Positions 1,569 through 60,318 of a stretch of DNA of 64,000 bases are shown here, one piece after another. Position 1 is the first letter of the stretch, and each line of letters starts with the position of its first letter. The translations under genes and the position numbers were made by a program. The stretch lies in NCBI GenBank assembly GCA_016648135.1, contig JADDOH010002317.1:1-64000 (forward strand), read 5' to 3'. The notes under the pieces were generated by a model that had not been told where the DNA came from, did not search any database, and worked only from the letters and a program-made list of their open reading frames with translations. The DNA is from Agrypnia vestita (taxonomy: Eukaryota > Arthropoda > Insecta > Trichoptera > Phryganeidae).

Positions 1569-1764
1569 AATAATTATAATTTATGGAAATAAACTTTGTC
1601 TATACCGCTTTTTTGTTGAAAAAATCGACATGTTTCAGAGCCCATACATTTTATTTTATACATTTGTTTTCCTGACGAAGGGGCCATGGGCTTTGGAACA
1701 TGTCGATTTTTTCAACAAAAAAGTAGTGTAAGCAAAATTTATTTCTATAAATTATAATTATAAT
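1569..1764. repeat. Inverted dimer with hammerhead-like core
   Basis: Two arms of about 75 bp (about 1569-1644 and 1685-1764) are inverted copies of each other. The right arm region on + carries CTGACGA (1672-1678), an imperfect stem II, GGAA in place of GAAA, ACATGT and a GTC triplet. The left arm carries the complementary half on the minus strand. It resembles the 38.25 kb copy. Likely tail-to-tail Penelope-type terminal repeats. Confidence 0.55.
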
Positions 1765-2929
1765 GTCACCACAAAATAATTTTGCTGTGTTTAGAGAAGA
1801 AGTTATAATAATAATATTTAGCCCAATAAAATAAATCACGATGGACGCAATATAAATGACATTACATTAAAAAAATTGACATGTACAACAGCACGTAACC
1901 CAGGAATAATATTTCATAAAAAAACATAAAGACTTGGCTAACAGAACAGCTGAACAAACCACTAGCAGCTTCGAGTTTATCCCCTAACAATGAATTAAAG
2001 TATCATCAATTGAATCATTAACGAAACATCAAACAGTATTGCTAAATCAGTGAATTATCATTGTATTTACCCCACCTGCACTCATTACGATTATCATGTT
2101 AAACAGTGCGCTCGTAAATCTGACACAATTCCACTTTAAAAACAATAAAAGCGAGCCTGTCGTCGGTTGTGTTTGATGAGCAGCAGAACAGCATCTACAA
2201 ACTTGGCGTGACAAGTTGTCTTTTTACAACTTCGTTGTTATTAAAATGACGCGACCGCCGCAGCCAGTCACAGTTCGTGCCGATGTCTCCCCAGAGACGA
2301 CACCGGCAGACATGTTTAGCCAAAGTACGCTTAATAAGCTTTATAACACTCACATTTGATAGACAATTAAAACTCCGGCGACAACATCAACTTGAATTTA
2401 CCAAGTTACGAAAATTTTCCGCGTTTTACTGCCTAGACAACTTTCACGAACTATAACTCCTCTTCACAATTCAAACACGACATTATTTGTACTCTCTCAA
2501 TTTGGAAAACTAGTATCAATATTAAAATACGAGGATTTTACAAAGATAATAACGTCAATTATAATCAATGTATAAATACGTTTATAGTTACACAGTTACA
2601 CAGCCTAGCAAAAATGCGTACCTAGGCAATGAATTGGGACAATGCCAGGAAAGAAGAAGAAGAAAAGGTACTTTAAGAATGCGTTTTAAACCGATATATG
2701 TCCAAGTGTGTGTTAGCGATGGTTATGCGAGAAAAAGTTATATAACCGCTTCACGCTAGACAGTAATACAACACATTTGACATCATTGAGGCATATATAG
2801 TATCGCGTGTTGTTGTTTAAAATAAATGTAAAGCACATTTTAAATAACTATTTATCATTAAACAATTTTTTAAATTCTCATATTCCTAAACATTAAAAAA
2901 AATAACTGAACTACATAAAAATAAAAATG
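1765..2929. other. No gene recognised
   Basis: AT-rich sequence with a short GC-richer patch near 2245-2320. The 63-codon ORF at 2568 has no family resemblance. Nothing supported. Confidence 0.5.
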
Positions 2930-3120
2930 TTATTATGTTTTCATGACCATTCAGAATCTCCTGGTTTGTAATATGCAGTGTTTTAGGACCTATTTCCCAT
3001 TGCATCAGGGCTGAACGGTCCATCATCATCCTTGATAATAGACCCTGCAATGAGATTCGAAATATCGGCCAGAAAGGTCGTAAAAGCACGGCATATTTTC
3101 CCATAAAACAAAAACCAGAA
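2930..3120. repeat. Inverted pair of Penelope-like terminal repeats (family 2)
   Basis: The left half reads as the complement of the right half (tcctggtttgtaat... versus ...acaaaaaccagaatc). The right half carries a decayed CTGATGA-like box, a GACCCTGCAATG segment and CGAAAT followed by the CGGCCAGAAAGGTCG block. The block recurs at about 9021-9080, 21571-21655, 22471-22520 and 22640-22710. Hammerhead core largely lost. Confidence 0.45.
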
Positions 3121-3136
3121 TCTTAAAAATCTTAGT

Positions 3137-3182
3137 CGTTTACTTTGCAATATTATTGGGAAAAAATATTGCAAAGTAAACG
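3137..3182. repeat. Perfect 18-bp hairpin
   Basis: The arms at 3137-3154 and 3165-3182 (cgtttactttgcaatatt and its exact complement) flank a 10-nt loop. Sits at the right edge of the family 2 repeat. No poly-T tract or gene context suggests a terminator. Confidence 0.7.
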
Positions 3183-4300
3183 TCATAAATCCATTAAATT
3201 ACATAAAGCCCAGTAGTGGAGCTAATTACATCAGTTTTAAAACATCGTTTGTTTGGTAACTTATTGATTCATGAAATAATTTATGTTGTGTCCTTTTAGA
3301 AGGAAGTGTGTACAATCCTCTTTAAGCTAAATCATACTGTAAAATCTCGTTATATTATCTTGCTGCTGAAAAACGATATGTAAAGTTCTCCAGACAGACC
3401 AGTTTAGTGATGGGTCCATCATTGAAATAATAATAATAATTAATATTAGATAATTTGCCCATTTTAAAAATGTATATATGAATAACTCATTTAGAATGTA
3501 CGATCTCTAAAATGTACATCTTAGAGCAGATTAGCTAAAACGTTTGACATAATCATTTTAGTTTCTATTCAACATGAGGCAGCATTATGATGATAATTAC
3601 GCCGCTAAATTATCTTAAAAAGCTCTTCAATACCTTTTGACACCCTAATTAAAGGGTGTAATTATTACTGAAACACTTAAACAGCGCCGCTCATTCGGGG
3701 ACCCTGCAATTAAAGGGTTCATTTGTAACTTGGGAGAGCTGTCTGCGGAACATTTTGCCGGAGCCATACATATTTTTACAGTTCATTATTGTTATTAAAC
3801 ATCCTAATAATTGCGATGATCCTAACCATTTACGGAGTGATCATTTTTTAAATGTTTATAATATTGTTGTTAAAGGAGCGACAATAATTACGGGTTAAAA
3901 TAAAATGACTCTGTATTACTCTGGTCTGCACAATTATATCCCATTGAAAAATTGATATTTTTTTTAATTAATTTGGATGATTTGGATATAAGACAACGTT
4001 GACATCTATATACACTTTTAAATTGTACGCTTTTGTGAGAAAATACCACCATTATTTTACACAAACAATAAAATCTTACTGCATATAAAAGTTAGTTCGT
4101 TATAGGACTTAACTAACGGTGATCATATATTTATCATATTAATCATTAGTAATTATTACAATTAAATAAAAGCTTATAAAATTTCTAGTTACAAGAGAAG
4201 AAGGGGAAGGAAAGTTACGGTTGATTTTAACTTGAAATAAATTACAGCAGAAGGTATCCGCGCTGCATGCTCGAACAGCGCGCTCTGGTTAAGTGATATG
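3183..4300. other. No gene recognised
   Basis: AT-rich, no long ORF, no recognisable repeat apart from short direct words. Confidence 0.5.
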
Positions 4301-4309
4301 TGCGCAGCT

Positions 4310-4632
4310 TGTTCTGTCTGTATTTTTAATCCCTTTCTGTTAAGTTTGTTGTCTGCCGGAAAACTTGGATCGATTTTTAACCCTTTTCCCGTGATCCAAT
4401 CGAACTGAAACTTTGCATTTAGACTCGTGGCGACGATAAAAATGAACTAACAAATTTTCGTATAAAAAAATGTAATAATTAAAGTATAATTTTGGATTTT
4501 TGAAATTTTAATGGTTTTTTCAAATTGGAATCAATACAAATGAGCAATAACCCCGACGCGCGCAGTAGGCACGAAACCTGCTTCAACGAGAAAGGGAGTA
4601 TAATAAAAACTTGTTTTTTATGGGTTAGTTTC
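4310..4632 (+). repeat. Interspersed repeat family F1, 3' end
   Basis: Related to 48028-49085 (minus), 54447-54760 (minus) and 62845-63393 (+). Shared blocks include cgatttttaacccttttccc, gtgatccaatcga and the 3' end gggagtataataaaaactt followed by a short hairpin ending tatgggtta. Non-coding. The 62.8 kb copy has short complementary ends (ACTCCCTTT / AAAGGGAGT). Confidence 0.6.
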
Positions 4633-5625
4633 TTAGATTACTGCGACTACTTTCAGTTCACAACGTCATTTTCAACATGAGAAATGAAGCTTTGCAAAAA
4701 ACAAATAACTGTAAAAAAAATCTAGTGATTAGTTACACATTTTTCTATTACGCAACAAGAAAAAACGTTTCGAAAAAATTCTGTTTTTAAAGAGTAAACG
4801 AAGAATTTATTATAATATTTTGATACTCGCCTTGAATAAATAATTTGTGATGCCTTTATTTGTTTCGAAAATTTTTCAGCGATTTCATTATGACAATATA
4901 AAATTAATATATACAAAAATCCAAATCATGGGTGAAGCCGCTGGCCAAACCAAGGGTAGCAAAAATAACTGTACTGTAAAATAAAAATAATACTGAAATG
5001 ATAAACAAGGTCACAATTTATAATTATTGATATCAAATATCGATCAATTCGCATTGGTGGGTCAAGAGTAGCATTTTATCCGATCACTGTTGCGGGACTC
5101 CAAAAATGGTCCTCCCATAATTCTGGTTCTTCAGGACACGCAGTCGACCTGCCGTGCGCCATCCAGGCAGCGCGGACACACGTCACCTCGCGCACACAAA
5201 TTGCCTCCGAACTACCTGATTGTAACTTCTCTCAAGCGAGAACTTTCTTGGAATACCTCCAACAAACTGGCGCGGGCGCCCGCACAAAAAAGTTTTTCGC
5301 TTTTTGAAATATATGTTGCAATCAGAGAATAATCAATTTGCATTAGAGAAAATGTTTATAGCGATATTGGTAATGCAGTTATGATATTTTTAAAAGTGTT
5401 TTTTTTAAATATTAACGATTTATACGCAAACTTATGTATGTTGTTTTAGATTTAGATTTAGACTCATTAGATTCGTTGTTTTTCACTCTATTGAATTCGT
5501 ATTATGCTGCCATCGGAAGTGCATCATGACTTGTTACTATTATTTTATTGCTAATTTGACAAAAAAATATTTATTTTATTTCTGGTTTTCATTTTCAAAT
5601 AAGCCCAATTTCCGACGTTACGTAA

Positions 5626-7490: not shown

Positions 7491-7500
7491 TCTTAGATTT

Positions 7501-7904: not shown

Positions 7905-7973
7905 TCTTAGATTTTCACGATCACTCAGAATCTACTGGTTTTTGTCTTCTGGGGTATTATTCCGTGTTTTTAC

Positions 7974-19500: not shown

Positions 19501-19504
19501 TATA

Positions 19505-23835: not shown

Positions 23836-23859
23836 ACAAAATTACATCTTAATAAACTT

Positions 23860-24165
23860 GACTACGCTGACGTCCTGGTAAAGGTCACAGAGCTCGGTGT
23901 TGTATCTTTTTCGCCATGTTTGACCGTCATTAATATGTCCATACTCGGCGTAAGATGTTTCTTTCAAATGTGTCTAGTCTATTTTCGTCGTGCTTAGTTC
24001 ATGTCCAGGTCTCCGAGGCATATGTTGAGACTGGTCTAAGCAATGTCTTGTAGAGCGTGGCTTTAGTTTTTCTGGACATCAGGCGCGACCTCAATTGTCC
24101 AATGAGACCAAGGTAACTCCGGTTTGCTGCAAAGTAGGTATATGACCACTTCAGACATTTTTAGT
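23860..24165 (-). mobile_element. RTE-like LINE RT fragment
   Basis: The minus frame gives ATLYKTLLRPVSTYASETWT and RLDTFERNILRRVW, matching the typical RT C-terminal segment LYKTL-RPV-x-TY-x-ETW. Confidence 0.75.
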
Positions 24166-24585
24166 CTCCTGGTATCGAGTCCTACCTGTCTCTTCGTCAG
24201 GACAACCAGCATGTAAATAACACTAGACACCGCGCAGTGGGTATATACAAACATAACTTACATTTTGTTAAAAAAATTCTCTAGCATAGTCATTGAGTTG
24301 TGGGTTTGAAAGTTTTATTTTAAAAAAATCAACAGGTGGTTTTGAAATACAAAATATATTTAAATCAAAATTACAGCTTTATGCTTGGTTTGTGGGAGTG
24401 ACTTCGCGAAAGCGACTTCGGAAACGCGTAACAGGAAGTAGGAACGAAATAATGTTCCGATTTCGAATTTATTCATTTTGTTCGGCATATTCAACTTTGA
24501 CATTAGGCGTAGGGAGAAGAGACGTCACTTACTTTTCAAATCTAAGGGTGTTTTATACGATCCATGCGTGGAATAAGCCTAAGAG

Positions 24586-44400: not shown

Positions 44401-47400
44401 GGCGGCCTACATCGGGGGCGCGTGTGCCCTGCTCGTGCCTCGTTTGCTTATGCGGCATTCTTGCCACGATGTGTGTATGTGTGGCCTAGATTGGTGTGGT
44501 ATGAAATGCTGCACAACCATGATTGAAATTTGCCGTTCATTATTATTGATATCACCAACTGTCATTTCTTTCCCTCAGTCAGAGTCGCCGCTTCTCATCA
44601 AGCCTTACTTCGCTGACCTGACGAAATCGGAGATCCACGCCATCATGGCTTCTGGTTTTGCTACAGTGTCTGGTAGGTTTTTCAAATTTCAGTATTTCAC
44701 AGCCATTTTTTCAATTGTAAATAATTTTTTGACGTATTCTGAATATTAGTCAATTAGCCAACTCAATTAGTCTAAAAAAAGCCTTTGAATCATGCATACT
44801 GCCAGTGATGGCGTATGGAGTGGAGACGATGGCCCTCACAAAGAAAAGTGTAGAAAAGTTCAAATGCACACAACGATCCATGGAGAGGTCCATACTTGGA
44901 GTTTGCCTAAGAGATAGAATTAGAAATTGATTAATGGGCAGGGCATGTTGCAGGTTTACTACAAGATGAACTCACAGAGTTCTGAAGTGGAGGCCTTGGG
45001 AGAATAAAAGAGGCGTTGGTAGACCTCAAAATAGAAGGGTCGACGATATAGCCGCTGTGAGGGAAATAAATGGCTACAACTAGCAAATAACAAAGAAGGA
45101 TGGAAGGTTATAGAAGAGGCCTACATCCAGCAGTGGAAAGATGAAGGCTGAAGAAGACGAAGAAGGAGATTCTGAATATAAAAATTATTGTTATCGGTGA
45201 TTGTTAACGCAACACTCAAAATTTACGACTATTTGCCTTAATCGATGATACTTATTTGGTATTGGTATTTATTTATTCCCTTTTAATTACTTAATTAATA
45301 TATTTACGACTTTTGCAATTTTTGATGAGACTTTTGGAAAGTAATCGTGAATCTTCATGGTCTAATTAGTGTGACATTTTGATTGAGGAGAATGTGGTAT
45401 ATAAGGGATTATTAAATATTTTTAATTCAAGGCACAAGTCAGGCAGCAAAAAATGCATCTTGTGTTTATTATGTCACATATTCAACACCCAACAGTCATG
45501 CGGTAATGGCATATAAATCATTTAAAATTAAAAAAGGTACATTAATATTTTTTACAGTACATGAATTGTAATGACGGACCTCCACGAAGTCATGGTGTTC
45601 TTAAAAAATACCTGATTGTCTTGACGTCGGAGCCATATTTATAAATTGATTAAATAATTTAGTTTGTGTCATTTTACGAAGGTATACGTATTCAAAATAT
45701 GTGAAACCTGATGAATAAATTTATTTGATGCCTTTATGCTCAAAAATATAACACAAAATGCAAGAGAAGATATGTATGATCCAAAAAAAATGTTTTGAAT
45801 GCAGTCACTTAGGATTACTTATACAAAATGTACTGAATTATAAATTTAATGTGTCTATCTCTTTCAAAATCTTGTTTCTTATAAATTTATAAGCTATGTT
45901 TAATTTTTAATCTCTTATTCAGTAAATATAAATTAGCATTGCGATGACTGCATTATTTTTTTAATATTGCTGCCTTTGATATTATCGTCACATATAAGAA
46001 AGAGCGATGAATTTTACTCAAATTAAGCCATGTATTCACTAGGGGGGGCAAATAGCGCAACATTCCGCGCGGCATGTCGCATCAACATCTACGCTCATGT
46101 TTCGGGGACAATGACGCAATTGACGTGTACACACCGGGACTCACATATCATATATATATGTATACATATATATATGTGTGTATGTATGTGTGTATATGCA
46201 TACTTTTAGATATAACTTCATAATATGTGTGCCTTGAATATAAAATTTGTAATATACATATTATGGAATAAATAAAAATTGAATTGAATTGAATATCACT
46301 TGTCGCGGAAATGTCGCCCGATGAGGTTATGATGATTAGTGCTGCGCATCTATTTATTCTAACGAGTTTATCGAAAGATAAGAGCAGAAAAAGGTGGTGG
46401 GTGCGAAATATTTACTGAAAAGGAAAAGAAGGATGGATATTCTATGCGATCTTCAAATGTTTGACAGATCATTTGTCAATTTCATTCAAATGACAACAAC
46501 TGATTTTGACAATTTATTACAAATGATCGGGTCTTCCATAGCCTAGCAAGACACAATATTGCGGAACGCTGTTTTATATCACATCATATAGCATATGTAA
46601 CTGTAGCGCATGCGTCTTAGCTTGTCAACATACCACGTGGTACTGACGCGTGGTACGATGTCCCCGTGCGCTCGTTCGGGAACCGTGCGCATGGCAACGT
46701 TGCCGCGGCACGTAGACTCTATGCCGCGCGTGATGTTGAGGACAATTTGTACCCTAATGAATACGTGGCTTTCAGAAGACAAGCGCCACCAAGTTTTGTA
46801 GTTTTTTTTTTTTAATATTTCTGATTTCTGAATCGAGGAAACAATTTTGTATTTGCTCTCGATTTTTGTGAAGCAAATTTGAAAATTTATTCACAGTTCT
46901 GACTGAATTTGTTCTACAGGAACCGTGCTGGCCGCGTACATATCCTTCGGGGTCCAGCCGGCCCACCTCATCACGGCCAGCGTCATGTCGGCTCCGGCGG
47001 CCTTGTGCTACTCCAAGCTCTTCTACCCGGAGACGGTCAAGTCCAGGACTGCCGTCAGCACCATCAAGACAGTCACCAGGTACTCACAAATCTTTAGTCT
47101 TCGTCACAACCAGAGCCAATGCAGGCGAGTTGTTTGACGCTTAATCATCCGCCATTTTTTTTCGCGAGTTTATTATTTAAAAAATTATGAAGTTAAACAC
47201 TGAACTTTATTTTTTTCCACTATTATATTTGAGAATTGTCACACTACGTGTTTCGGAAACATCCGTTTCCTTCTTCAGGTGAGTTAAGACTGAGGTATGT
47301 GGGAGTGGTTGTCTGATGTGTGGGTTGTGGATTCAGTTGAAGTGGAGGGGGTATCTAGGTGGTGGGAGATCGGGAACATTGTAAGAAGGGGTGACGTGAA

Positions 47401-50400
47401 GGGTTGATGTTATTTGTTGTGTTTAGGTTTTTATGAATTTCAAGTGTTTCTAAATTATTTCGTTTTAGGCCGTATGTCTGTTTATGTAGGATGTGTATTT
47501 TTGTGTTGTTGAATGTGTGATTATTTTCTATAATATGATTTGCACATTCTGAAAAAGTATTTTATTTATTTATGAATGTAAATGTATGCAAGTTAGCAAC
47601 ATTGAAGCATGATTTTTACGCAAAGAAAAAAAAAGTTTTTTTTTTTAAATAGATCGCTTGAAATATATCTAGAAATTCTAATTTACTGCTTCGTATGCTC
47701 TGATTACGGTGGAACGCTTCTCACACGTCGGTAGGTACTTTATCGCTGGTTTGAATCCACAATGAAATCGTCCGTTAAATTTACCGTCGCTTGGTCACAC
47801 TGAATCGCCGCTTTATATGTGTATTACGTGTTCGCGCTGGCTTCCACGATTCGCATTCTATCACTACAACTCATATAACTAATGTCGCAGAAAGCCGCCG
47901 CCCGCAGACGCGGAGTCCGTTTGCTATGGACGTGGACAGGGTGGACAGCCGTAAAATAAATGAAACCTTAATTAGGCGTCCCCAAAAAAATATTTTTACA
48001 ATGTACAAGAATCTCAATCTTATTCGTTAAAAAACTAACCCATAAAAAACAAGTTTTTATTGTACTCCCTTTTTTTGTAAAATAAAACAACAATTAAAGA
48101 CGAATTAAAACATATACCTAACATATTGCTTGCCCAACGTAACTTGGCGTGCGGCGAATTTTGAACTAAAATCCGCCCCGCCCGCACCCGGCGGTAACCC
48201 CTCGCCCTGTCATTCAGTTCATTCTCGTTTTTGAGCGCGAGCTGTGTCATCTTGATTACCAATATACACTGAATTATTATGTCCAAAACATTCTAAACAG
48301 TCCGGGATGGTGCGAGAACAGTTTTGCGAAGCTGAAGAAGCGAATAATGGACCGATATTACCGTCTGACAATTTGCCAGATAGAACGGCTGCCATTACTG
48401 CATGGTTTCTTTAGTGCTGCCCGACCAAATTTCCGTATTTAATACGACACCGGTCTCCGGACATTCTGTACATTATGTATTGTGTAATAAATTTACACCC
48501 TGACAACTTCTGTTACGCGACAGGAACGCCCTCCCTCGCACGCCAAGTTATAGTGGTACGTCTATAACACTAAACTTACAGGAATTTAATATATTTCTAA
48601 AATGTCAGATGTTTTGAGCTTTGATAAGACACTTCATGCTTTGAAGATTAAATTCTAAAAACATTTGTCAGTCAATTTAATCAAGATTTTGATAGATTTG
48701 TGAATTTTGCTGTCGTCTGTGAACCGATTGTCATAAATTTTCGAAATTCGTAGTGAAGTACCTATTATATATACCGACAGAGTAATTCAAATTTTAAATA
48801 TTCCGTGACGTCGTCAGGCCGCTGTTGGTAGTAATCAAACATTTGTATTGTTTCCAATTTGAAAAAAAAACATTAAAATTTCTAAAAATCCATAATTATA
48901 CTATAATTATTTGTTTTTTAACGAAAATTTGAAAGATCATTTTGATCATCGCAACGAGTCTGCTTGCAAAGTTTCGGCTCGATTGGATCACGGGAAAACG
49001 GTTAAAAATCGATTCAAAGTTTTTCGTCAGTCAAGCAATCAATTAATCAGACGCCACGAGTTAATATAAAGGAAGTAAAAATGATATAATTTTCTCTTCC
49101 AGCGAGCACTCTTCAGTGCTGGATGCTGCGTCTGTCGGAGCTGCTAATGCCATTCCTCTGATCCTCGGCATCGCCGGAAACCTGGTGGCCTTTGTGGCCG
49201 TCGTCGCCTTCCTCAACGGCATCTTGGGCTGGCTGGGGGCCCTGGTCGGCGTAGACTACCTGAGCTTTGAGTGGATATTCGGAAAGGTCTTCATACCGCT
49301 CAGCTGGGTTATGGGTAAGTCTGGCAAATATGTAGATGGGTAGGTTTCATCCATAGATCCAACACGCTGTGAAGGATCTAGGCCTGCCCGGACGCTAGTC
49401 CCTCGGGCGTGCCTATAGACCAATCACGCTCGAGGCGAATCACCAATCCGAAGCCCGATGCGACCGGCGAGCTATCGACAAGCTGGTATGGTGACCTTAC
49501 CAGCTTACTCCCCCAAAGATAATTATACACAATTTTTATTGAGTTTTGTTTTTCTTTTAGGTTATGTCAAAATATATTTATTAATTTATATATTTAAATG
49601 TCCTTTGGGCAATTACACGGAAGAAAAATTATTCTACAAAAATAATGCAATATGGAATATACATTATAACTTAAATATGTTCAAATAAACTATTGTATAA
49701 TGAAAGATATTAATTATTTAAGGAGTGCTAGAAGAAATATCATAATAAAAAAACTAAAAAGAATATATATATAAATAATATAAACAAGGCAAACGAAATA
49801 ATATGATGAACAATATTAAAAGCTACAGGTGCCTAGCTTAACATTTGCATGCCCACTTGTTTTTTAAGAACAGCAATACTATTAATACTAAACAAATCCA
49901 CAGAAATGAATTCATTTCCAGCCTTATGCTATCTATGCAAAGATGAATTGTTCACAAATCAGAGCGAAAAGCATCTATATCAACGGAGCATACGATAATT
50001 AATAATGTTCACCAAACTAGGGCAATCTACAAGCCCCTTTATTAAGCCGGGGCTGCGTAAACCCCAGCCGGGTGCCAAAGTCGCGGCTGAAGGAACTGCG
50101 TCATTCCGTCGCCCGCACCGGTTAAGCGAACAACAATCTTGTGGCTATCGTTAGAATTATGATTGTAATCGTCATTTTGTAAAAGATGAATAATGCTATG
50201 CAAGTGAGGTAAATATAAGTACGAATAGTCTTATTATTCTCATATATCTTTTGATCAACCGAGTCTGCCTGTTTAATCTTTAACTGAGACTTGTTCCGAA
50301 TTGCAATCAACCAAGGAGACGTTTCCCCTTAGTTTCAATGATCTTCCATCTGAAGAGAAGTGTTCCTCTCTTATTGCAACTTATTACACAAAGCACATTT

Positions 50401-53400: not shown

Positions 53401-55275
53401 ATACACTTAAATGCAAAAATACATGTTACTAGAGCGTGCCGAAGACACTTGTAATTGGGATAATGGGCATAGTCTTCACTATAATGTTTATTATCTGAGT
53501 GTCATGTACCTATTATCCTGTTTAGTGTCTCTAATAAATAAAAAATAAATAAAAAAGATACTCATATATATCCTTCTGTAAATATATTTCAAGAATTTGA
53601 TGTACCACTAACTAACTAACTAACTAACTATCACGCCTTTTCCCCGTGGGGGTAGGCAGAGAGGATAGAGCGCCATACTCTTCTGTCCTGAGATACAACT
53701 TTCGCTTCATCCACATTCATACATGTTCGCATGCAAGCTCGACGGTTGTTGAGGCTTCTCACAGGACCATCTTCCAGTATCTGGTTAATCTGGTCATGCC
53801 ACGTCTTCCGTGGTCGCCCTCTCTTTCTGGCGCCGCCAACACTTGCATTATATATATTTCTTACCATTCTTCCCTCATTTATTCGCTCAACATGCCCAAA
53901 CCACCTGAGTGACCCTATTTTTATTCTATATATTATGCTATGATCAGCTTTACATTCATTCCTAATATCTTCATTCTTTACCCTATCATACATGGACCAC
54001 CACTCACAAAAATATACAAAATTAACTCCCTATGCCAATTTTTTTTTTATAAATAAATCCCACTCCTTAGACTGTACAAGTTATAGACATAGAACAAAGG
54101 GACAAATGAAGATACCAACTTTAAGAACCACCATGGCACAACATCACTATACATACTCATACTCGGGAGTTAAATGGTACAATACATTGTTGTCGCAAAA
54201 CAAATTTCAAGAAAGAGACATTCCAAAATACGAACATTAAGAAAGAAGTCAAATCCTTGATTTTGGACAAAGTATTGTAACATTGTCCACATGTCTCAAA
54301 TGGTTTCTGTATAATAAAAATTACTACTTCTAAATGGTTTCTGCTTTTGAACTTTTTTTGGCTTAAATCTCCTCCCATAAGCATTAGCAATTGGATCATA
54401 TTATAGGGAGTATAATGACTTGTAATAACATTAATTTAATTTATTATAAAAAAGTAACCCATAAAAACCAAGTTTTTACTATACTCCCTTTCTTTGTAAA
54501 ATATAACAATAATTAAAGACGAATTAAAACGTATAACATAACACTAAACTTACAGGATTTTTTTTTTTTTCACACGAAGCAAACACATTGTGGTGAGACA
54601 TAATATATTAAAATAAAATAACTTTTTGTTTTAACGGTTAATATCTGAACCCTGATGAAGACTCGGTTGTGAGTCGAAACTAGTTGGTTTAAACTTAATA
54701 AAGTGGTGTTAAACAAAAAGTTATTTTATTTAAAGATAATATATTTCTAAAATGTCAGATGTTTTGAGATGTCAAGATGGAATCTCGGGAACTGTTTTGA
54801 TTTATTGTTTCACCTGAATTTTCTATTTCAGTTTGCAAAGTTTCCGTTTTGAACAAGAGCGTCTCTATTCTATGACAAGAGCATGCCAATAATAAGCATG
54901 TGTGTTTGATTGTTAGCTTTGGGCATAATAAATAAATTAAAATAAGCGTGCTAATAAGAGGCAAGTGAGTACAGTTGTTAGAGCGTGCTAGTTTTGAGCA
55001 TACTAATAAGGGGCAAGTGAGTACAGAGTACAATGAGCATGCTCAAAAATAAGCATGTGTATCTGTACCTTCAAACTGTAAAACAACGTGTTTAATATTT
55101 GGATGCTGCATGGTTTATGTTAAAAAACGATAACAAATGTATGCAAAGAAAGCGTATAAAAGCATGTCTTCATTTTTACTTTATTTACTTGTTAATTCGT
55201 TTATTTGTAATTTCAGGTCTTCTGATAGAACCGGGATCTTTCATCTCCCCGCCATTCAACTCGACTTCTATTTAA
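26385..55275 (+). CDS. Concentrative nucleoside transporter (SLC28/CNT), 13 coding exons
   Basis: Sodium- or proton-coupled plasma-membrane nucleoside importer. Coding exons: 26385-26426, 27963-28010 (or its duplicate 29040-29087), 31426-31651, 33121-33295, 36735-36996, 39670-39759, 42463-42624, 44579-44672, 46920-47079, 49103-49314, 51444-51559, 52688-52868, 55217-55275. Every junction is AG/GT and keeps the frame; the sum is 1827 nt, 608 residues plus TAA. Metazoan CNTs are about 600-700 residues, so it looks complete. Seen: charged N-terminus, first membrane segment near residues 78-102, the VLPVIFFFS helix (about 282-290), substrate loop G334-M335-S336-E337, [10 protein letters not shown] helix, N511-E512-F-V-A-Y, and GFTN545PSS548. 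From family knowledge, the loop Glu, the NEFVAY Glu and the Asn/Ser of the last motif line the nucleoside and cation site; all are kept. The tail after the core is short and ends NSTSI. Family certain; orthologue and substrate not. Confidence 0.95.
26495..26660 (+). repeat. Short interspersed repeat, copy 1
   Basis: The segment tctgtctgatgaatgagagt ... gcgagaggcgccattttgt recurs at 30945-31050, where it interrupts an RTE fragment. Non-coding MITE-like unit in CNT intron 1. Confidence 0.7.
27241..27316 (-). repeat. tRNA-like sequence (SINE head or tRNA pseudogene)
   Basis: The minus strand shows a D-arm GTCT...AGAC, a B-box GGTTCGAACC and a plausible spacing, but the acceptor stem does not pair and the anticodon arm is poor. 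Not a functional tRNA. Confidence 0.45.
27540..27806 (-). promoter_or_regulatory. Heat-shock-type promoter-like segment, antisense to CNT
   Basis: Minus strand: TATATAAG (27743-27736), initiator TCAGT with A at 27710, E-box CACGTG (27734-27729), and upstream a GAACATTC dyad (27792-27799) of heat-shock-element form. An A-rich leader follows, with a 20-codon ORF (start ATGGGCGAA). It resembles insect hsp promoters in layout but may be a retroelement promoter. Lies in CNT intron 1. Confidence 0.35.
27963..28010 (+). CDS. CNT coding exon 2 (copy A, 48 bp)
   Basis: Acceptor ctttcag, donor gtgagc, 16 codons in phase 0: [16 protein letters not shown], part of the cytosolic N-terminal tail. A near-identical exon lies 1077 bp downstream. 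Because both are 48 bp and phase 0, either, both or neither can be spliced in without shifting frame. Confidence 0.85.
28170..29030 (-). mobile_element. CR1/jockey-like LINE 3' fragment
   Basis: Minus frame pieces: [32 protein letters not shown], then [21 protein letters not shown] is the RT thumb-region motif of these LINEs. It separates the two copies of CNT exon 2. Confidence 0.7.
29040..29087 (+). CDS. CNT coding exon 2 (copy B, duplicated 48 bp)
   Basis: Acceptor atttcag, donor gtgagc, 16 codons: [16 protein letters not shown]. It differs from copy A at three residues. About 100 bp of flanking intron after the donor is duplicated too, so this is a tandem genomic duplication, later split by a LINE fragment at about 28170-29030. 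Splice sites and frame are intact. It may be mutually exclusive with copy A or a cassette exon. Confidence 0.75.
29228..29800 (-). mobile_element. Jockey/CR1-like LINE 3' end (family J2), broken
   Basis: Starts with a (TTTA)n run and the word aacgccctta shared with 37001-37745 and 56026-56745. The minus-strand C-terminus (ADIFADN-like) is seen, then an insertion at about 29597-29695, then more J2 sequence to about 29775. Confidence 0.7.
29785..30165 (+). mobile_element. tRNA-derived SINE (family S1)
   Basis: Contains a tRNA-like head at 30007-30080 with a 7-bp acceptor stem (two G-T), D-arm GCTT/GAGC and T-arm CTGGG/CCCAG with TTCGAAT, but an anticodon arm that cannot fold. Flanked by aaccaaattaat / attaatttggtttt inverted ends. 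Other copies: 31720-31965 (decayed), 40090-40635 and 58490-58790 (minus). Confidence 0.75.
30660..31130 (-). mobile_element. RTE-like LINE 3' end, interrupted
   Basis: The (TTAC)n tail at 30664-30685 is followed on the minus strand by the protein piece seen intact at 53993-53631 (GRPRKTW region). A short repeat (about 30945-31050, same as 26495-26660) splits it. Confidence 0.75.
31426..31651 (+). CDS. CNT coding exon 3
   Basis: Acceptor attacag, donor gtacgt, ends in phase 1. It encodes a basic/acidic cytosolic stretch ([11 protein letters not shown], then [14 protein letters not shown]), then a Ser-rich linker and the first hydrophobic helix ([20 protein letters not shown]). Confidence 0.9.
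31720..31965 (+). mobile_element. Decayed S1 SINE copy
   Basis: ctaccgtattacaaaaaagt and aaggtcgatatatattgacg match the S1 flanks at 29.9 and 40.4 kb; the tRNA-like head at about 31830-31895 has lost its A-box. Confidence 0.55.
32102..32220 (+). promoter_or_regulatory. Cluster of heat-shock-element-like modules in CNT intron 3
   Basis: Three runs of contiguous 5-bp nGAAn/nTTCn modules. 32102-32121: CGAAT TCTCT CGAAC ATTCC. 32143-32172: GGAAT ACTTT GGAAT CGTCT AGAAC GCTCC (six modules, three with one mismatch). 32201-32220: TTTCT CGAAA AATCT CGAAG. This phasing is the binding pattern of trimeric heat-shock factor. No TATA box or transcript recognised beside it. Confidence 0.45.
32305..32500. 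repeat. Small inverted-repeat element
   Basis: ccacaaagtagacctctttg ... at 32308 pairs with the complement at about 32425-32500 (taattcgattgtctttctta and aaattgtgg). The centre has a hairpin of tgtgttggtgttta with tataaacatcaacaca. Confidence 0.6.
32515..32850 (-). repeat. Interspersed repeat family U
   Basis: Relatives at 44130-44480 (+) and 52040-52330 (+), all in CNT introns. Shared words: gctccaaaggcgtagaat, gacaatg, agactgacatg and a ccgtc...gacgg hairpin before ggaaaagc. Non-coding; class unknown. Confidence 0.7.
33121..33295 (+). CDS. CNT coding exon 4
   Basis: Acceptor attccag, donor gtgagt, ends in phase 2 within a Trp codon. It encodes an acidic loop ([11 protein letters not shown]), a hydrophobic helix ([19 protein letters not shown]) and the basic segment leading to YARVWMMW. 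Confidence 0.9.
33440..34125 (-). repeat. Penelope-like repeat block with hammerhead
   Basis: Minus-strand relative of 43420-43880. Contains the hammerhead motif at 33962-34003 and a non-hammerhead part (33440-33830) with the word ggagacgaaaaccgctt in both copies. No reverse transcriptase or GIY-YIG ORF is present. Confidence 0.5.
33962..34003 (-). ncRNA. Hammerhead ribozyme motif, weak stem I
   Basis: Minus strand: CTGACGA (33999-33993), stem II GAGACG/CGTTTC with loop GGTA (33991-33976), GAAA (33975-33972), stem III ACCGGT (33972-33967), triplet GTA. The first two stem I pairs are mismatched. It lies in a longer repeat (33440-34125) that has a + strand relative at 43420-43880. CNT intron 4. 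Confidence 0.5.
34126..35073. other. Intron 4 DNA, no gene recognised
   Basis: AT-rich, ending in a LINE-tail-like stretch near 34800-34850 (gtgaaataaatctatcaatc). Nothing else supported. Confidence 0.45.
35074..35831 (+). mobile_element. TTAA-flanked MITE (family F3, copy B)
   Basis: TTAA flanks on both sides (35074-35077 and 35828-35831) and inverted ends gccatgtattcactagg / cctagtgagtacatggc. About 750 bp. The long ORF across it has no counterpart in copies A and C, so it is not a gene. CNT intron 4. Confidence 0.85.
35860..36700. other. Unassigned repeat-like DNA upstream of exon 5
   Basis: 35876-36060 matches fragments near 893-950 and 14464. The word gcgaatgcggttacaa occurs at about 35870 and again at about 36558. 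ORFs on both strands at 36175-36531 and 36308-36697 overlap and show no domain. No gene supported. Confidence 0.4.
36735..36996 (+). CDS. CNT coding exon 5
   Basis: Acceptor cttccag, donor gtacat, ends in phase 0. It encodes two membrane helices and the family signature [18 protein letters not shown], which corresponds to the conserved WG-x-x-LQF-x-x-G motif of CNT proteins. Confidence 0.95.
37001..37745 (-). mobile_element. Jockey/CR1-like LINE 3' end (family J2)
   Basis: The minus frame 37592-37233 reads [40 protein letters not shown] and [16 protein letters not shown]; upstream [19 protein letters not shown] and AIERVQKKF. (TTTA)n tail at 37002-37026. 56026-56745 is nearly identical. Confidence 0.9.
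37930..38055. repeat. Tail-to-tail pair of hammerhead-bearing repeats
   Basis: A minus-strand CTGAAGA (37970-37964) and the + strand motif at 38007-38048 face each other across a palindromic centre (gggtgttatatgtatg / catatatcaccc). Confidence 0.55.
38007..38048 (+). ncRNA. Hammerhead ribozyme motif, G12 mutated
   Basis: CTGATGA at 38012-38018, stem II GAAA/TTTC (38021-38024 with 38029-38032, plus one G-T), stem III ACATGT (38037-38042), triplet GTA with H17 at 38043, stem I GGTGA/TCACC (38044-38048 with 38011-38007). The GAAA box reads TAAA: the catalytic G12 (38034) is T, so it is probably inactive. An inverted half-copy precedes it at about 37955-37990. Confidence 0.55.
38237..38279 (+). 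ncRNA. Hammerhead ribozyme motif, imperfect stem II
   Basis: CTGACGA at 38242-38248, GAAA at 38265-38268, stem III ACATGT (38268-38273), triplet GTT with H17 at 38274, and stem I GATAT with GTATC (38275-38279 with 38241-38237). Stem II (38249-38264) pairs as AGGG/CTCT and then mismatches. CNT intron 5. Confidence 0.6.
38330..38615. repeat. Fold-back element F2, truncated copy
   Basis: Left end cagaatattttgagcatgtc, arms with gtctcacacagacgaaactg, ggacttacgacctatcgtac and its complement; the right arm stops at about 38615. Confidence 0.75.
39210..39275 (+). repeat. Interstitial TTAGG telomere-type array
   Basis: About a dozen TTAGG units with a few variants. TTAGG is the ancestral insect telomere repeat. 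It sits in CNT intron 5 beside a decayed family 2 repeat that appears twice (39280-39420 and 39420-39600). Confidence 0.85.
39280..39600. repeat. Two copies of a decayed family 2 repeat
   Basis: tttctttacatattttcagt at 39278 and 39419 each start a segment with ctgaac.gccgtgaaaa, a ggatattctgccgtgt block and tgacctctctggctga. Resembles the Penelope-like family 2 at 21571 and 9021. Confidence 0.5.
39670..39759 (+). CDS. CNT coding exon 6
   Basis: Acceptor tttttcag, donor gtaaga, 30 codons in phase 0. It contains the GSTFVFGD motif that matches the conserved G-S-x-FVFG segment of CNTs and ends in FAFA before the VLP helix of exon 7. Confidence 0.93.
40090..40635 (+). mobile_element. tRNA-derived SINE S1 with inverted partner
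   Basis: tRNA-like head at 40481-40554 (T-arm CCGGG/CCCGG with TTCGAAT), preceded by an inverted partial copy at 40090-40290. Anticodon arm cannot fold. CNT intron 6. Confidence 0.75.
41020..41060 (+). ncRNA. Type I hammerhead ribozyme motif
   Basis: CTGAAGA at 41024-41030, stem II GATGC/GCATC (41032-41036 with 41042-41046), GAAA at 41047-41050, self-complementary stem III AACGTT (41050-41055), triplet TTT with H17 at 41056, and stem I TAAT/ATTA (41057-41060 with 41023-41020). Core intact, stem I short. CNT intron 6. Confidence 0.65.
41500..42400 (-). mobile_element. CR1-like LINE 3' fragment
   Basis: The minus frame includes [32 protein letters not shown] and, after a break, a C-terminal block whose + strand relative is at 53996-54430. 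(TTTA)n tail at 41503-41525. Confidence 0.65.
42463..42624 (+). CDS. CNT coding exon 7 (substrate-loop exon)
   Basis: Acceptor tctcccag, donor gtgact, 54 codons in phase 0. It contains [17 protein letters not shown] and the HP1 segment ending N-T-F-L-G-M. In human CNTs this position reads Ser-Gln (CNT1), Gly-Met (CNT2) or Gly-Gln (CNT3); here it is Gly-Met. Confidence 0.95.
42885..43370 (+). mobile_element. TA-type MITE with transposase N-terminal remnant (copy 1)
   Basis: Ends with complementary blocks taaattagcgtgcg / cgcacgccaattta. Inside, ATG at 43047 opens a 51-codon frame with [20 protein letters not shown] and [15 protein letters not shown], the look of the N-terminal helix-turn-helix of an IS630/Tc1-mariner-like transposase. 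It stops at TAG (43199-43201). Copy 2 is at 48118-48570. Confidence 0.6.
43420..43880 (+). repeat. Penelope-like repeat block
   Basis: Relative of 34125-33440 (minus). Contains CTGACGA at about 43547, but the rest of the hammerhead (stem II second strand and GAAA) is missing. Confidence 0.5.
44130..44480 (+). repeat. Interspersed repeat family U
   Basis: Same words as 32515-32850 (gctccaaaggcgtagaat, agactgacatgcccg). It ends about 100 bp before CNT exon 8. The ORFs here are repeat-derived. Confidence 0.7.
44579..44672 (+). CDS. CNT coding exon 8
   Basis: Acceptor tccctcag, donor gtaggt, ends in phase 1. [20 protein letters not shown] matches the CNT block T-E-A-PLLI-R-PY-x-A-D-x-T-x-SE-x-H and supplies the catalytic-site Glu (E337). 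Confidence 0.95.
44785..45165 (+). mobile_element. RTE-like LINE 3' end (family R3)
   Basis: The + frame gives [20 protein letters not shown] and [16 protein letters not shown], then after a stop the same block as 24659-24890. CNT intron 8. Confidence 0.82.
45170..46020. other. Intron 8 DNA, nothing recognised
   Basis: AT-rich without ORF or recognised repeat. Confidence 0.45.
46023..46773 (+). mobile_element. TTAA-flanked MITE (family F3, copy C), split by a LINE tail
   Basis: Left end TTAAGCCATGTATTCACTAG; right end atacgtggc followed by TTTC. A J1 LINE 3'UTR (about 46145-46295, with (TATG)n and aattgaattgaattg tail) is inserted within it at catatca / atatcac. CNT intron 8. Confidence 0.8.
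46920..47079 (+). CDS. CNT coding exon 9
   Basis: Acceptor tctacag, donor gtactc, ends in phase 2. It contains [26 protein letters not shown] and the cytosolic linker [13 protein letters not shown]. Two positions tied to base selectivity in human CNT1 (Ser-Leu) read His-Leu here. Confidence 0.95.
47240..47285 (-). ncRNA. Hammerhead-like motif, H17 = G
   Basis: Minus strand: CTGAAGA (47278-47272), stem II GGAAAC/GTTTCC with loop GGAT (47270-47255), GAAA (47254-47251), stem III ACAC-GTA-GTGT. The cleavage triplet is GTG rather than NUH and stem I does not pair, so it looks decayed. CNT intron 9. Confidence 0.45.
48028..49085 (-). repeat. F1 repeat split by a TA-type MITE
   Basis: F1 sequence at 48028-48117 and 48571-49085 is continuous when 48118-48570 is removed; compare the uninterrupted copy 62845-63393. 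Flanks read TATA on both sides of the insert. CNT intron 9. Confidence 0.8.
48118..48570 (+). mobile_element. TA-type MITE (copy 2) inserted in F1
   Basis: Same as 42885-43370. Internal ATG at 48280 is followed early by a TAA stop. TIR blocks acttggcgtgcgg and cgcacgccaagtta. Confidence 0.75.
49103..49314 (+). CDS. CNT coding exon 10
   Basis: Acceptor cttccag, donor gtaagt, ends in phase 1. [16 protein letters not shown], then two hydrophobic helices with the GWLG and [20 protein letters not shown] segments, equivalent to the GLSFQ-x-I-x-x-x-x-x-P block of CNTs. Confidence 0.95.
49330..50480. other. Intron 10 DNA, unassigned
   Basis: GC-rich patches at 49360-49510 and 50030-50120 among AT-rich DNA; no ORF or repeat family recognised. 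Confidence 0.4.
50930..51345 (+). promoter_or_regulatory. Possible solo LTR with TATA, initiator and poly(A) signal
   Basis: TATAAGAA at 51081-51088, initiator-like TCACTC with A at 51115, and AATAAA at 51272. TATA, start and AATAAA within 200 bp is the layout of an LTR R region. No coding retroelement sequence flanks it. CNT intron 10. Confidence 0.35.
51444..51559 (+). CDS. CNT coding exon 11
   Basis: Acceptor tttccag, donor gtaagt, ends in phase 0. [16 protein letters not shown] is followed by NEFVAYK. The Glu (E512) is the conserved HP2-region residue of the nucleoside/cation site. Confidence 0.95.
51610..51770 (+). repeat. Repeat family F6, copy in intron 11
   Basis: actcgacccaattctgtgct and ttgtgataatatagctgagt match the two tandem copies in intron 12 (52869-53318). 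Confidence 0.75.
52040..52470 (+). repeat. Interspersed repeat family U
   Basis: cgacggaaaagctccaaagg and agactgacatgtccacatag match copies at 32.5 and 44.1 kb. The following segment to about 52620 shares cataatcaaggcaggaatat with 8490-8540. Confidence 0.7.
52688..52868 (+). CDS. CNT coding exon 12
   Basis: Acceptor ggttccag, donor gtaact, ends in phase 1. [19 protein letters not shown] carries the Asn/Ser of the binding motif (N545, S548), followed by the [15 protein letters not shown] segment and the last helix ending in ACVAG. It is the most GC-rich exon of the gene. Confidence 0.95.
52869..53318 (+). repeat. Tandem duplication of about 222 bp at the exon 12 donor
   Basis: taactacctctggttcacac occurs at 52870 and 53092, and each copy runs through actcgacccaattccgtg to gatgacctgaacctatag. 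In the second copy the donor gtaact reads ataact, so it is not a second splice site. Confidence 0.85.
53330..53560 (+). mobile_element. LINE-type 3'UTR fragment
   Basis: Nearly identical, in inverse orientation, to 62470-62690 (atgggcatagtcttcactat, agagcgtgccgaagacac). Ends in an (AATAAA)-like tail near 53533-53555. Confidence 0.6.
53600..53993 (-). mobile_element. RTE-like LINE 3' end, open C-terminal frame
   Basis: The minus frame 53993-53631 is open: [58 protein letters not shown], ending YPHGEKA, then a (TTAG)n tail. Relatives: 9370-9740, 30660-31130, 60350-60480 (+) and 60800-61074. Confidence 0.9.
53996..54430 (+). mobile_element. CR1-like LINE 3' fragment
   Basis: The + frame gives [20 protein letters not shown] and [13 protein letters not shown]; its complement occurs at 41950-42060. 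Starts directly against the RTE fragment. Confidence 0.65.
54447..54760 (-). repeat. F1 repeat split by a hammerhead-bearing repeat
   Basis: F1 sequence at 54447-54557 and 54743-54775 is separated by a 54558-54742 insert. The insert starts with an inverted tail (gaagcaaacacattgtggtg), holds the hammerhead at 54646-54691, and ends with part of the same tail in direct orientation. Confidence 0.75.
54646..54691 (+). ncRNA. Type I hammerhead ribozyme motif (best copy)
   Basis: CTGATGA at 54652-54658. Stem II GACTC/GAGTC (54660-54664 with 54671-54675), six-base loop. GAAA at 54676-54679. Stem III is the self-complementary ACTAGT at 54679-54684. Cleavage triplet GTT with H17 = T at 54685. Stem I: 54686-54691 pairs with 54651-54646 (GGTTTA with TGAACC, one G-T). 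All three stems and the core are intact. The tail carries AATAAA and a GTGGTG block seen in related copies. It sits inside a repeat that interrupts another repeat in CNT intron 12. Confidence 0.75.
54770..55080 (+). repeat. GCATGC-rich repeat (family F4)
   Basis: Many gcatgc/agcatg words in alternating orientation, starting at ggaatctcgggaactg and ending gtgtatctgtacctt. Closely related to 61560-61825. It lies in CNT intron 12, ending about 140 bp before exon 13. Confidence 0.75.
55217..55275 (+). CDS. CNT terminal coding exon 13
   Basis: Acceptor aatttcag completes the Gly codon of exon 12 and encodes [19 protein letters not shown], then TAA at 55273-55275. Candidate poly(A) signals follow: ATTAAA at 55405 and AATAAA at 55668. 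The tail is much shorter than in human CNTs, but the frame and splice fit are exact. Confidence 0.85.
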
Positions 55276-56745: not shown

Positions 56746-56939
56746 CAGTTTATTACTTTTATGTAAGAACAAAGGTTCTATCTAAGATATTGCTCTGAAA
56801 AAAATTCATTCTAGAATATAAATATTAGAACTAATGAAGAAATGAATAATAAAAACTCACATTTTCGTAAACAAAAAAACGCTGAAATATGCATTAGCAG
56901 TGAATGTCCAGCCTTAACGAATTATTTAAAAGAAATTTA

Positions 56940-57735: not shown

Positions 57736-57739
57736 AACT

Positions 57740-58489: not shown

Positions 58490-58790
58490 AAATATATATT
58501 TTTTAAAACCAAATTAATTAATCAATTAGAAAGACATACAGAAAAATCTAGTTCACGAAAAAATATTAGGTTACTACTGGGATTCGAACCCAGGTCACAT
58601 CCTTTCCGGGGCCGGTGCTCTGGCCGCTAAGCTATAGCAACCCTAATATTTTTTTAGTATTAGTAACCTATTATTTTTTGGTGAACTAGATTTTTCTGTA
58701 TGTCTTTCTAATTGATTAATTAATTTGGTTTTTATAAAATTTCACAGAACTTTGTTCTGAAAAATTACATCACAAATGTGAATGTGTTCT
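58490..58790 (-). mobile_element. tRNA-derived SINE S1 (minus copy)
   Basis: tRNA-like head at 58569-58642 on the minus strand (B-box GGGTTCGAATCCC), flanked by inverted ends aaaaccaaattaattaatca / attaattaatttggtttt. Confidence 0.75.
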
Positions 58791-58894
58791 TGATTATATA
58801 TATATTTTTTTTAGTTTAAAAAAGGTTACTTACTTACTATAAAAACTTATTTTGTGTTCATTTTTTGCATCGTAACAACACACGTATTTTTTGC

Positions 58895-59175
58895 GCACAT
58901 TCTTTTGAATGCGGTCTAGCTACAGCGTAGTGAAAATAATTAAAAAGCAACTTCAGGGTGGTTTGAATGAGAAGAGAATAGTAAGAACGATATAGAGTGT
59001 GGACGCGAAAGCCTTGGCAGGATCAGGTATACCAGATGGTCCAGCTAGGCTCCTCCGAAATCGACGCGCTTGCGTTCTCGTATGTATGGATTTGAATAAG
59101 GGGATGATTTCGTGTCAGGACGTGTCGCTACATCCCCTCTGCATACCCCTGCGGTGAAATGACGCGATGGTAAGT
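58895..59175 (+). mobile_element. RTE-like LINE 3' remnant
   Basis: ccctctgcatacccctgcgg at about 59136 resembles the end of the RTE copies at 60420 and 53640, followed by a degenerate ttag-type tail. Confidence 0.4.
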
Positions 59176-59589
59176 CAATTAGTTTGTAACTTGCGGCGCA
59201 CCGATTAAGAAAACTAAGAAGAAATGAAAGAGAAAACTAAAATATATATTAAATAAAATAAAAATGACGTCATACCTTTTTATTTTCAATTTTTTTTTAA
59301 CACTTGTGATTGATTCCAGTGATGAATTATAAAGTTTTATTTTTGAAGCGTCAATACTTAGCAATATTACTTTTCTAAAATGAGTTTTTAAAAACGTCCA
59401 TATAATAAGCTCAGAATCAATAGATTATATTTAATTTTAAATCCTATTTCAAAGGAAATTCTCCCTATTATCAGGATAACAAGGTTTTGAAAATTTGTGA
59501 TTTTCTTAGAGTGCAGTCCTTTCAAATATTTGATAGAATACTGATTTAGAACATGTATACTACTTTCAAAAATATGAAAATGTGTGATG

Positions 59590-60180
59590 TTCTTGCGTTG
59601 GAATTGGTGAACGTTACATTCTGTAGAAAGACCACTTAAGCCCACTCACACAGGTCCTAAGCCTTGGGCCACACAATAAAGACTTATAAATATAAATAGT
59701 TTCATCTCTGTAAGACTTCTATAATTTATTTTAATTTTTAAATTATCCCTTTTGGACAGAATCCAGTAATTGTGTTCTCTGAACATACATACAGAGTTTC
59801 TCATAGCTAGTAGCAAAACCTTTACAGGTGTATTCTGCCGCGATAATGAGTCAAAAATTTTCAAGCATCCATGACCTATCAATAGAAAAATGCAACATCA
59901 AAGTTTCCATTTTTTTCAATATTTCTGACATATTTTTTGCCAAAAGTTAAAATATCATTACAGTAACTTATAACAATTATGAAACATTCATTCGCTTCAA
60001 TACAACTTATATAAAAAAATAAACCTTGTAAAAAATTCTATTTTAAATTTTTAGAGGTTTTTATCCGTTAAAGCGAATGAATTTTTAGAATATAAGTTAC
60101 TGTAATGATAGTTAAACTTTTTGAAAAAAAAGTAAAAAATTGGCTACCTGTGATATTGCATATCCCCATAACTATTGATA
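59590..60180. repeat. Diverged F2 copy and nearby inverted repeat
   Basis: 59590-59790 contains decayed F2 words (gaccacttaagcccac, agtttcatctctgtaagact). Farther on, tatcattacagtaacttata (about 59951) and ataagttactgtaatgata (about 60093) are complementary arms. Confidence 0.5.
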
Positions 60181-60271
60181 TTAGATTTTCAAAGGAAGCA
60201 AACACTTGGTGGTGATACATTATAATTAAATAAATAATAATAACTCTGTTATACACCACTTATATTTATTA

Positions 60272-60318
60272 AAAATCTAACCAGGTTTCGCTACTACCGT
60301 AGCTTCTTCAGGGATCTT
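60272..60318 (-). ncRNA. Hammerhead ribozyme motif
   Basis: Minus strand: CTGAAGA (60311-60305), stem II GCTAC/GTAGC with loop GGTA (60303-60290), GAAA (60289-60286), stem III ACCTGGT (60286-60280), triplet GTT with H17 at 60279. Stem I pairs at 60277-60272 with 60313-60318, but the first pair is mismatched. The AATAAA and GTGGTG tail resembles the 54.65 kb copy. Confidence 0.55.

Follow-up and report, generated by a model that had tools for sequence, protein, structure and literature searches.

A 64,000-nucleotide (nt) stretch of the genome of the trichopteran insect Agrypnia vestita (contig JADDOH010002317.1, positions 1 to 64,000; hereafter the window) raises a simple question: are the short motifs scattered in and around one of its genes really hammerhead ribozymes and, if so, to what do they belong? 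The original prediction, made from the sequence letters alone, had described at least seven such loci with covarying stems and assigned them to several divergent Penelope-type families. Our analysis leads us to consider it very probable, on sequence grounds, that they are minimal type I hammerheads of several endonuclease-bearing families of Penelope-like elements (PLEs), a group of retrotransposons.

We searched the window with descriptors of increasing stringency, naming each locus by the position of the first C of CTGANGA. A relaxed descriptor (CTGANGA, zero or one extra nt, stem II, GAA or a one-base variant of it, and an A...T stem III) found eight loci, against a mean of 0.39 and a maximum of three in 150 dinucleotide shuffles. 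The full rule, which demands CTGANGA, a perfect stem II, an unchanged GAA, at least two of three stem III pairs, an H17 other than G and at least three of five stem I pairs, gave four loci (38242+, 41024+, 54652+ and 47278-), against one hit in total in 1799 shuffles. A covariance model trained on five loci (R2) recovered four other window loci, at E values of 1.7e-7, 8.9e-7, 5.9e-6 and 1.2e-5. Its next match after these nine, at 26941-26982, had an E value of 0.033; it was absent from the listing of a second model, R3, and was not counted as a tenth ribozyme. All nine loci score at E <= 3.5e-7 with R3, which was trained on these same nine. The features of a type I hammerhead (CUGANGA ... GAA(A) ... 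UH, with the ends in stem I) are all present in 4/9.

Seven of these loci fit the original descriptions (1672+, 33999-, 38242+, 41024+, 47278-, 54652+ and 60311-), and two more, 38012+ and the decayed 24200-, apparently lay outside them. The nine are as follows; type letters were assigned by eye from the stems, with no formal clustering, the main evidence for each locus is in brackets, and L numbers denote loci elsewhere in the same genome.

47239..47284, minus strand: type A ribozyme; stem I CTCAC/GTGTG, CTGAAGA, extra A, stem II GGAAAC/GTTTCC, GAA, stem III ACACGT, H17 = A, in the register given by intact copies (R2, R3, full rule).
38236..38280, plus strand: type C ribozyme, apparently intact; stem I GTATC/GATAT, stem III ACATGT (R2, R3, full rule).
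41018..41062, plus strand: type E ribozyme, apparently intact, with an extra T; stem I TATTA/TAATT, stem III AACGTT (R2, full rule).
54646..54691, plus strand: type D ribozyme, apparently intact; stem III ACTAGT (R2, R3, full rule).
1666..1710, plus strand: type C ribozyme with a damaged core, GGA for GAA (R2).
33960..34005, minus strand: type B ribozyme with a decayed stem I, GGCC/AACC (R2); an intact relative lies at L043:4601-4646.
24161..24206, minus strand: type B ribozyme with GAT for GAA and a broken stem III (R2).
60273..60317, minus strand: type K ribozyme with a one-base insertion in stem III and a 1.1 mismatch (R2).
38006..38049, plus strand: type J ribozyme with a damaged core, TAA for GAA (R2).

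All nine share a common layout: stem I, CTGANGA, one extra nt, a stem II starting with G, a loop, GAA (altered in three of the nine), a short stem III, H, and the second strand of stem I. The extra nt, which the original description lacked, lies between A9 and stem II and is A in seven loci and T in two. In the standard hammerhead consensus A9 directly adjoins stem II, with no nt between them. A descriptor that forbade the extra nt found one window locus only; one that allowed it found eight. Stem III is six bases long, A....T, in all but two loci: 60311 has seven bases, and 24200 ends in G. At 47278 the original prediction read stem III as ACACGTAGTGT; intact relatives have ACATGT, A and GTGAA after the GAA, and they correct the reading to that given above.

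Do the stems covary? We aligned the window loci with 28 of 45 loci from the species' own genome (the 17 omitted were mostly further type A copies), giving 36 matches, 29 of them distinct. As had been predicted, pairing is kept beyond chance: 89.1% of 340 stem cells are paired in the distinct copies and 60.1% when they are shuffled. The covariation score is 0.742, against 0.207 in shuffles (standard deviation 0.023) and at most 0.141 with slid partners, values that lean towards structure in an alignment made by a covariance model and fitted to that structure. H17 is never G, and stem III is a perfect palindrome in 22/29 copies. The loopless, mostly palindromic form of stem III suggests that the predicted ribozymes act as dimers.

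We then asked how common the motif is in the whole genome (1.32 Gb, 19,947 contigs). An exact pattern with the extra A, CTGANGAAG-N12-16-GAAACNNGT-N9-22-AGTGG, has 9457 + 9163 = 18,620 matches, and its reversed control has 0. Without the extra base there are 121 + 123 = 244, and several of 37 printed examples of these are A-to-G changes that retain the extra base. Both exact patterns require G10.1 and the first requires an extra A, so that T-type families are in neither count. Among 100 matches listed (86 distinct), stem III is palindromic in 77 of the 86, where chance would give 4/16 of the middle pairs; stem II is paired in 388/430 cells, against 292 when re-dealt, with none of 1000 re-dealings above 312; and a single match has G as its H. 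A sample of 200 kb, taken as the first 10 kb of twenty contigs at fixed steps, held 12 R2 matches at E < 1e-3. Proportionally this would be roughly 79,000 genome-wide, with a Poisson range of about 41,000 to 138,000, an estimate to which contig ends that may be repeat-rich contribute. In the same sample the descriptor had 15 hits, against 1.87 in shuffles; 11 of them carry one extra nt, two none and two two, while the shuffles are even.

These counts bear on the simplest alternative, that an eager reader had picked chance matches out of an AT-rich genome. Any single short motif is weak evidence, and Rfam reports none of them: its hammerhead families gave no match in the window at gathering score, nor at E <= 10, and no hammerhead at gathering score in 12 related loci. 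The original prediction had named covariance scores below threshold as what would undo it, and here the outcome was divided, since the Rfam models list none of the loci whereas the family-built models score all nine. A pattern search of IMG/VR shows what chance looks like: its matches, on 38 contigs, look like chance, with a best R3 score of 30.5 bits, E <= 0.1 in 7/38 records and no PLE protein by tblastn, and a search there for PLE relatives found none. Two of the window loci that R2 found untrained, at 28.2 and 29.2 bits with that different model, do not exceed this R3 maximum. Nevertheless, four full-rule loci against one hit in 1799 shuffles, the covariation and the 18,620 matches against none in the reversed control already refute chance, which we regard as virtually impossible. 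The scattered window motifs are thus confirmed, by sequence criteria, as a real signal of predicted hammerhead ribozymes.

The assignment to PLEs starts from type A. The original prediction had found no Penelope protein in the window, a statement that proved wrong. The peptide encoded just 5' of the 47278 ribozyme gave nothing useful by itself against Pfam, PDB and protein databases; a search of the species' own genome uncovered the protein, with 13,162 candidates and, among 150 places scored, some in frames of more than 800 codons. On one contig (C19388, locus L021), ribozymes at 2557, 5198 and 7837 are spaced by 2641 and 2639 bp, a fourth lies inverted at 876, and an 865-codon frame runs between the first two of the three in tandem. 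Its product, P0001, contains by reading the motifs ADKGNSIVI, QKDGLAMG, YVDD and GIYKLECGDCEMSYIGRTG, and a sub-range matches the Pfam family RVT_1 (E 6.7e-12). It has 424 homologues in 5.8 billion proteins. The 120 listed have mostly RVT_1 + PF26215, some with GIY-YIG, and their named sources include Phthorimaea, Euphydryas, Diabrotica, Cacopsylla, Schistocerca, Anthonomus, Cyamophila and Bemisia. Residues G734, Y736, C740, C743, Y747, G749, R758 and H762 are invariant in 14 aligned homologues. P0001 thus reads as a Penelope-like polyprotein, its GIY-YIG endonuclease being assigned by motif and aligned relatives. Many of the listed PLE relatives are on contigs of ~2.5-2.8 kb, near the 2.64-kb unit, as expected from collapsed tandem arrays or circles.

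The window carries PLE coding remnants at two places:

47179..47556, minus strand: PLE-A insertion, 5'-truncated, carrying the 47278 ribozyme; 86% identity to positions 2373-2761 of the L021 unit, with its end just short of the element's open reading frame (ORF) start.
47287..47555, minus strand: C-terminal remnant of the PLE-A protein within that insertion, in two pieces; residues 771-865 of P0001 (tblastn E 8e-30).
30300..30760, minus strand: second PLE coding remnant, from the GIY-YIG region, in two pieces; residues 685-838 of P0001 (tblastn E 8e-17). R2 and R3 found no ribozyme beside it.

In the L021 unit the TAA stop codon comes immediately before TTCAC, the 5' strand of stem I; the predicted cut lies behind ACATGTA, with the next ATG 70 nt downstream. 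The ends of type A copies fall at unit position ~125, shortly ahead of the ATG (C3+99, the end without a tail), or at ~172, which is ~43 nt inside the ORF; a single copy, at L015, extends past both. Most copies are 5'-truncated, and often they are joined in head-to-head orientation to an inverted one. The elements here show the traits of endonuclease-bearing PLEs: copies in full or partial tandem, truncation at the 5' end, inverted partners and an optional tail.

Several other types also lie beside PLE coding sequence. A type F ribozyme follows it by ~110 nt (L029, L007), and a type G ribozyme lies ~20-30 nt after a PLE remnant with a stop (L029). Types A (L021), F and G thus share a very short helix III and a position just 3' of PLE coding sequence. 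Type L is the doubtful case, lying 63 nt after a frame in L032 with an RVT_1 match of E 2e-9 and a GIY-YIG match of E 3.8e-4 (21.1 bits; cut-off 22.6). Of the types seen beside PLE coding sequence, A sits at a window locus (47278).

Further window loci can be tied to these types by similarity. The 38242 copy resembles type F from -3 to 66 from C3, past the ribozyme (79.5%, E 8e-9), and 1672 is a copy of the 38242 type (79.6%); by this resemblance both are linked to type F. The locus at 33999 groups, together with the partial copy at 43535, with L043 and L004, which 24200 resembles over the ribozyme only, and L004 resembles type G (68.6% over 169 columns, E 1e-7). Through L004 and L043, and partly through the shared core, 33999 and 24200 are linked to type G. 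L004 itself, of 3.2 kb, holds three further hammerheads of two types, two of the three head to head. The resemblance of 60311 (type K) to the PLE-adjacent type G covers 29 core bases only (E 6e-4) and makes a weak link. The right ends of D and E copies are also suggestive: among 2046 own-genome candidates for the 54652 type and 2337 for the 41024 type, most of the 40 scored for each end near C3+91 and C3+94, respectively, like type A copies without a tail, so that the repeat with the 41024 ribozyme ends at ~41118. The idea of several divergent Penelope-type families is supported in part: it holds for A, F and G, is doubtful for L and weak for K, and finds no support from a PLE protein for D, E and J.

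Partial copies and other repeats around the ribozymes were annotated as follows:

About 1570-1645: inverted partial copy of the 3' side of the 1672 ribozyme.
33770..33830, minus strand: partial tandem copy starting in the 3' half of the 33999 ribozyme, a 61-bp direct repeat (88.5%); its half-ribozyme is CGAAACCGGTAGACC at 33815-33829 (-).
43529..43547, plus strand: 5' half of a type B ribozyme, the remainder missing relative to 33999, by repeat comparison.
37957-38025: inverted copy of the 5' half of the 38012 ribozyme; a relative of 38012 in L036 has the same inverted arrangement.
54567..54743, plus strand: short repeat of ~177 bp that encloses the type D ribozyme and has inverted arms, defined by own-genome copies.
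39535..39582, minus strand: possible type L ribozyme remnant, CTGATGATGCACACTGCAATGGGTTC..., its 3' part lost; it resembles copies in L006, L013 and L032 by eye and has no match with the covariance models.

Such short elements suggest a second alternative, metazoan retrozymes, which are short tandem repeats that are non-autonomous, carry type I hammerheads and propagate through circular RNAs. High-copy ribozyme elements as short as the 54652 type (~177 bp), the inverted or tandem partial copies, and the lack of a PLE protein link for 54652, 41024 and 38012 would all fit. However, described retrozymes are tandem repeats of ~300 bp and those of invertebrates mostly have a stable helix III, in the excerpts available to us (PMC7229834, PMC7761336), whereas stem III here is loopless. 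None of the nine window loci has a tandem array, and one of 2 x 142 bp (39275-39555) borders nothing but the doubtful remnant of type L; PLE coding sequence lies next to types A, F and G; and the short D element is readable as a pair of 3' ends, 5'-truncated and inverted relative to each other. Retrozymes thus seem to us an improbable source.

The gene in the window raises a third possibility. It encodes a concentrative nucleoside transporter of the SLC28 type, with segments at 36634-37092 and 42400-42600 (+) and Pfam matches to Nucleos_tra2_N (E 1.1e-18) and Gate (E 2.6e-5, below the Gate cut-off). Ribozymes 38012, 38242 and 41024 lie in sense orientation between its coding segments, and ribozyme density in the window, at nine in 64 kb, is about twice that of the 200-kb sample, at 12. 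The host might therefore keep them for processing the transporter pre-mRNA, as has been proposed for some amniote hammerheads. Against this, ribozymes of the window occur in both orientations, 38012 carries damage, copies of these types are dispersed across the genome, and the window had been singled out for having many. We give a host function very little credence.

Other features of the window were also noted. An interstitial run of ~13.6 copies of GTTAG lies inside the host gene at 39209-39276, directly followed by the two 142-bp tandem units; TTAGG is the usual insect telomere repeat. Another contig (C2303, about 3833-10100) contains both the region around 41024 (98%) and, at 92% on the protein level, the PLE copy of 47278; it is probably the other haplotype or a duplicate. 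Hits resembling transfer RNA (tRNA) at 30008-30080, 40482-40554 and 58569-58641, each repeated inside longer repeats, probably represent a tRNA-derived family of short interspersed elements. Finally, 22960-23841 (-) is a coding remnant of another retrotransposon with a weak RVT_1 match (E 0.0089), and similar DNA occurs at 19504-20014 and 11393-11674.

Several observations weigh against assigning these motifs to PLE hammerheads. Five of the nine window loci are visibly damaged (33999, 60311, 1672, 38012 and 24200). In the alignment, 10/12 pairs are changed on both sides, not above shuffles (mean 8.8; 120/500 reach 10), and stem III is non-palindromic in seven of the 29 copies. The L036 type J pair can be read without an extra nt, and accounts for the two of 15 sample hits that need none. 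The type L ribozyme was recognised by reading, with E values of 0.16 and 0.47 for R2 and R3, which are not significant. As for the protein, a whole-protein Pfam scan of P0001 returned no family, Pfam GIY-YIG matched neither the whole protein nor a sub-range, and in the L021 array the second unit has an interrupted frame. We found no PLE protein link for 54652 (D), 41024 (E) or 38012 (J); the peptide upstream of 41024 was considered as a PLE C-terminus, an idea that was not supported, as its nine matches all had short open frames. Lastly, the ribozyme of PAc, a Poseidon element of Anolis carolinensis, cut only when PLE protein was added, and its mutants left in vitro insertion unchanged (PMC11167929). 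In view of these PAc results, any role of the ribozyme in transposition is hypothetical.

With these points taken into account, PLE hammerheads remain the reading we prefer. The motif, its covariation, its place in the element, the unit structure, the copy ends and the copy number are observed directly, and from them we infer cleavage, dimerisation and a role in the element's life cycle. In the L021 array the ribozyme lies between consecutive ORFs, a position at which a multimeric transcript would be cut, junction by junction, into unit-length RNAs. A hairpin in cis is unlikely because the palindromic stem III has no loop; two ribozymes would probably pair through stem III and plausibly cut as a dimer. 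New copies stop ~65-100 nt past the core on its 3' side, a distance that the optional tail raises to ~145 nt, and they are usually 5'-truncated, often with an inverted partner. Because these ends lie ~65-145 nt past the core, 5'-truncated copies keep the ribozyme, so that an insertion typically carries one, which mutation later erodes. Solo ribozymes thereby reduce to a simple rule: a ribozyme within ~65-145 nt of the element's 3' end, spread by truncated copies.

It is possible, but in our judgement unlikely, that the loopless palindromic stem III and the extra nt belong together as a single modified hammerhead, which would be an obligate dimer and would cut only at the meeting of two copies. 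Were this true, live tandem PLE transcripts would be processed while dead solo copies, tens of thousands in number and some of them in host introns, would be harmless, and the genome would be a natural mutational scan of that design. Whatever the mechanism, one insect genome holds at least 18,620 unbroken-core copies of many types, none of them detected by standard RNA annotation in the places to which it was applied, and their covarying stems offer material on why PLEs keep hammerheads, on dimer action and on the role of the extra core nt.

How do these ribozymes compare with known systems? Minimal type I hammerheads were reportedly described in Penelope-like elements by Cervera and de la Pena in 2014, and Lunse et al. 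are said to have stated in 2017 that PLE hammerheads 'cleave RNA as dimers'. Excerpts of later accounts describe the minimal PLE type as having a nearly absent helix III, lying in pseudo-long terminal repeats and in dispersed non-coding DNA, and being thought dimeric (PMC7761336, PMC6155905). The ribozymes here are likewise type I and PLE-adjacent with a near-absent helix III; they differ in comprising at least 10 types, by eye, in one insect genome, nearly all with the extra nt. That nt is not mentioned for PLE hammerheads in the literature excerpts searched, which exclude the Cervera 2014 and Lunse 2017 texts, and may or may not have been described before.

A precedent for it comes from a viroid. 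De la Pena and Flores reportedly described in 2001 an extra A in the hammerhead of chrysanthemum chlorotic mottle viroid, and this A lies directly after A9. An excerpt of a further source also places an extra A in the core of the plus-strand hammerhead (PMC3705267). The extra core A is thus common to both, in a viroid ribozyme there and in a whole set of retrotransposon ribozymes here. The spacing in our loci departs from the standard consensus; given the viroid precedent, this does not deny them type I membership.

Metazoan non-LTR (long terminal repeat) retrozymes, with up to 120,000 type I hammerheads in axolotl, resemble our set in type and high copy number, unlike which they have short tandem units and no protein of their own, as far as the excerpt goes (PMC7229834). 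The closest parallel is PAc, with a reverse transcriptase and GIY-YIG ORF, tandem copies and a ribozyme at the ORF junction (PMC11167929). Penelope and PAc have two start sites of reverse transcription and an optional tail of 30-40 bp, and copy ends near the ORF start with such an optional tail are common to PAc and type A. The start codon differs: in PAc it lies inside the ribozyme, which cuts 26 bp after the start, whereas in type A it follows 70 nt after the cut (PMC11167929). The PAc description would, we suggest, be compatible with an extra U between A9 and G10.1. Overall, PLE hammerheads are already known, and this insect genome adds new members to them, in large number.

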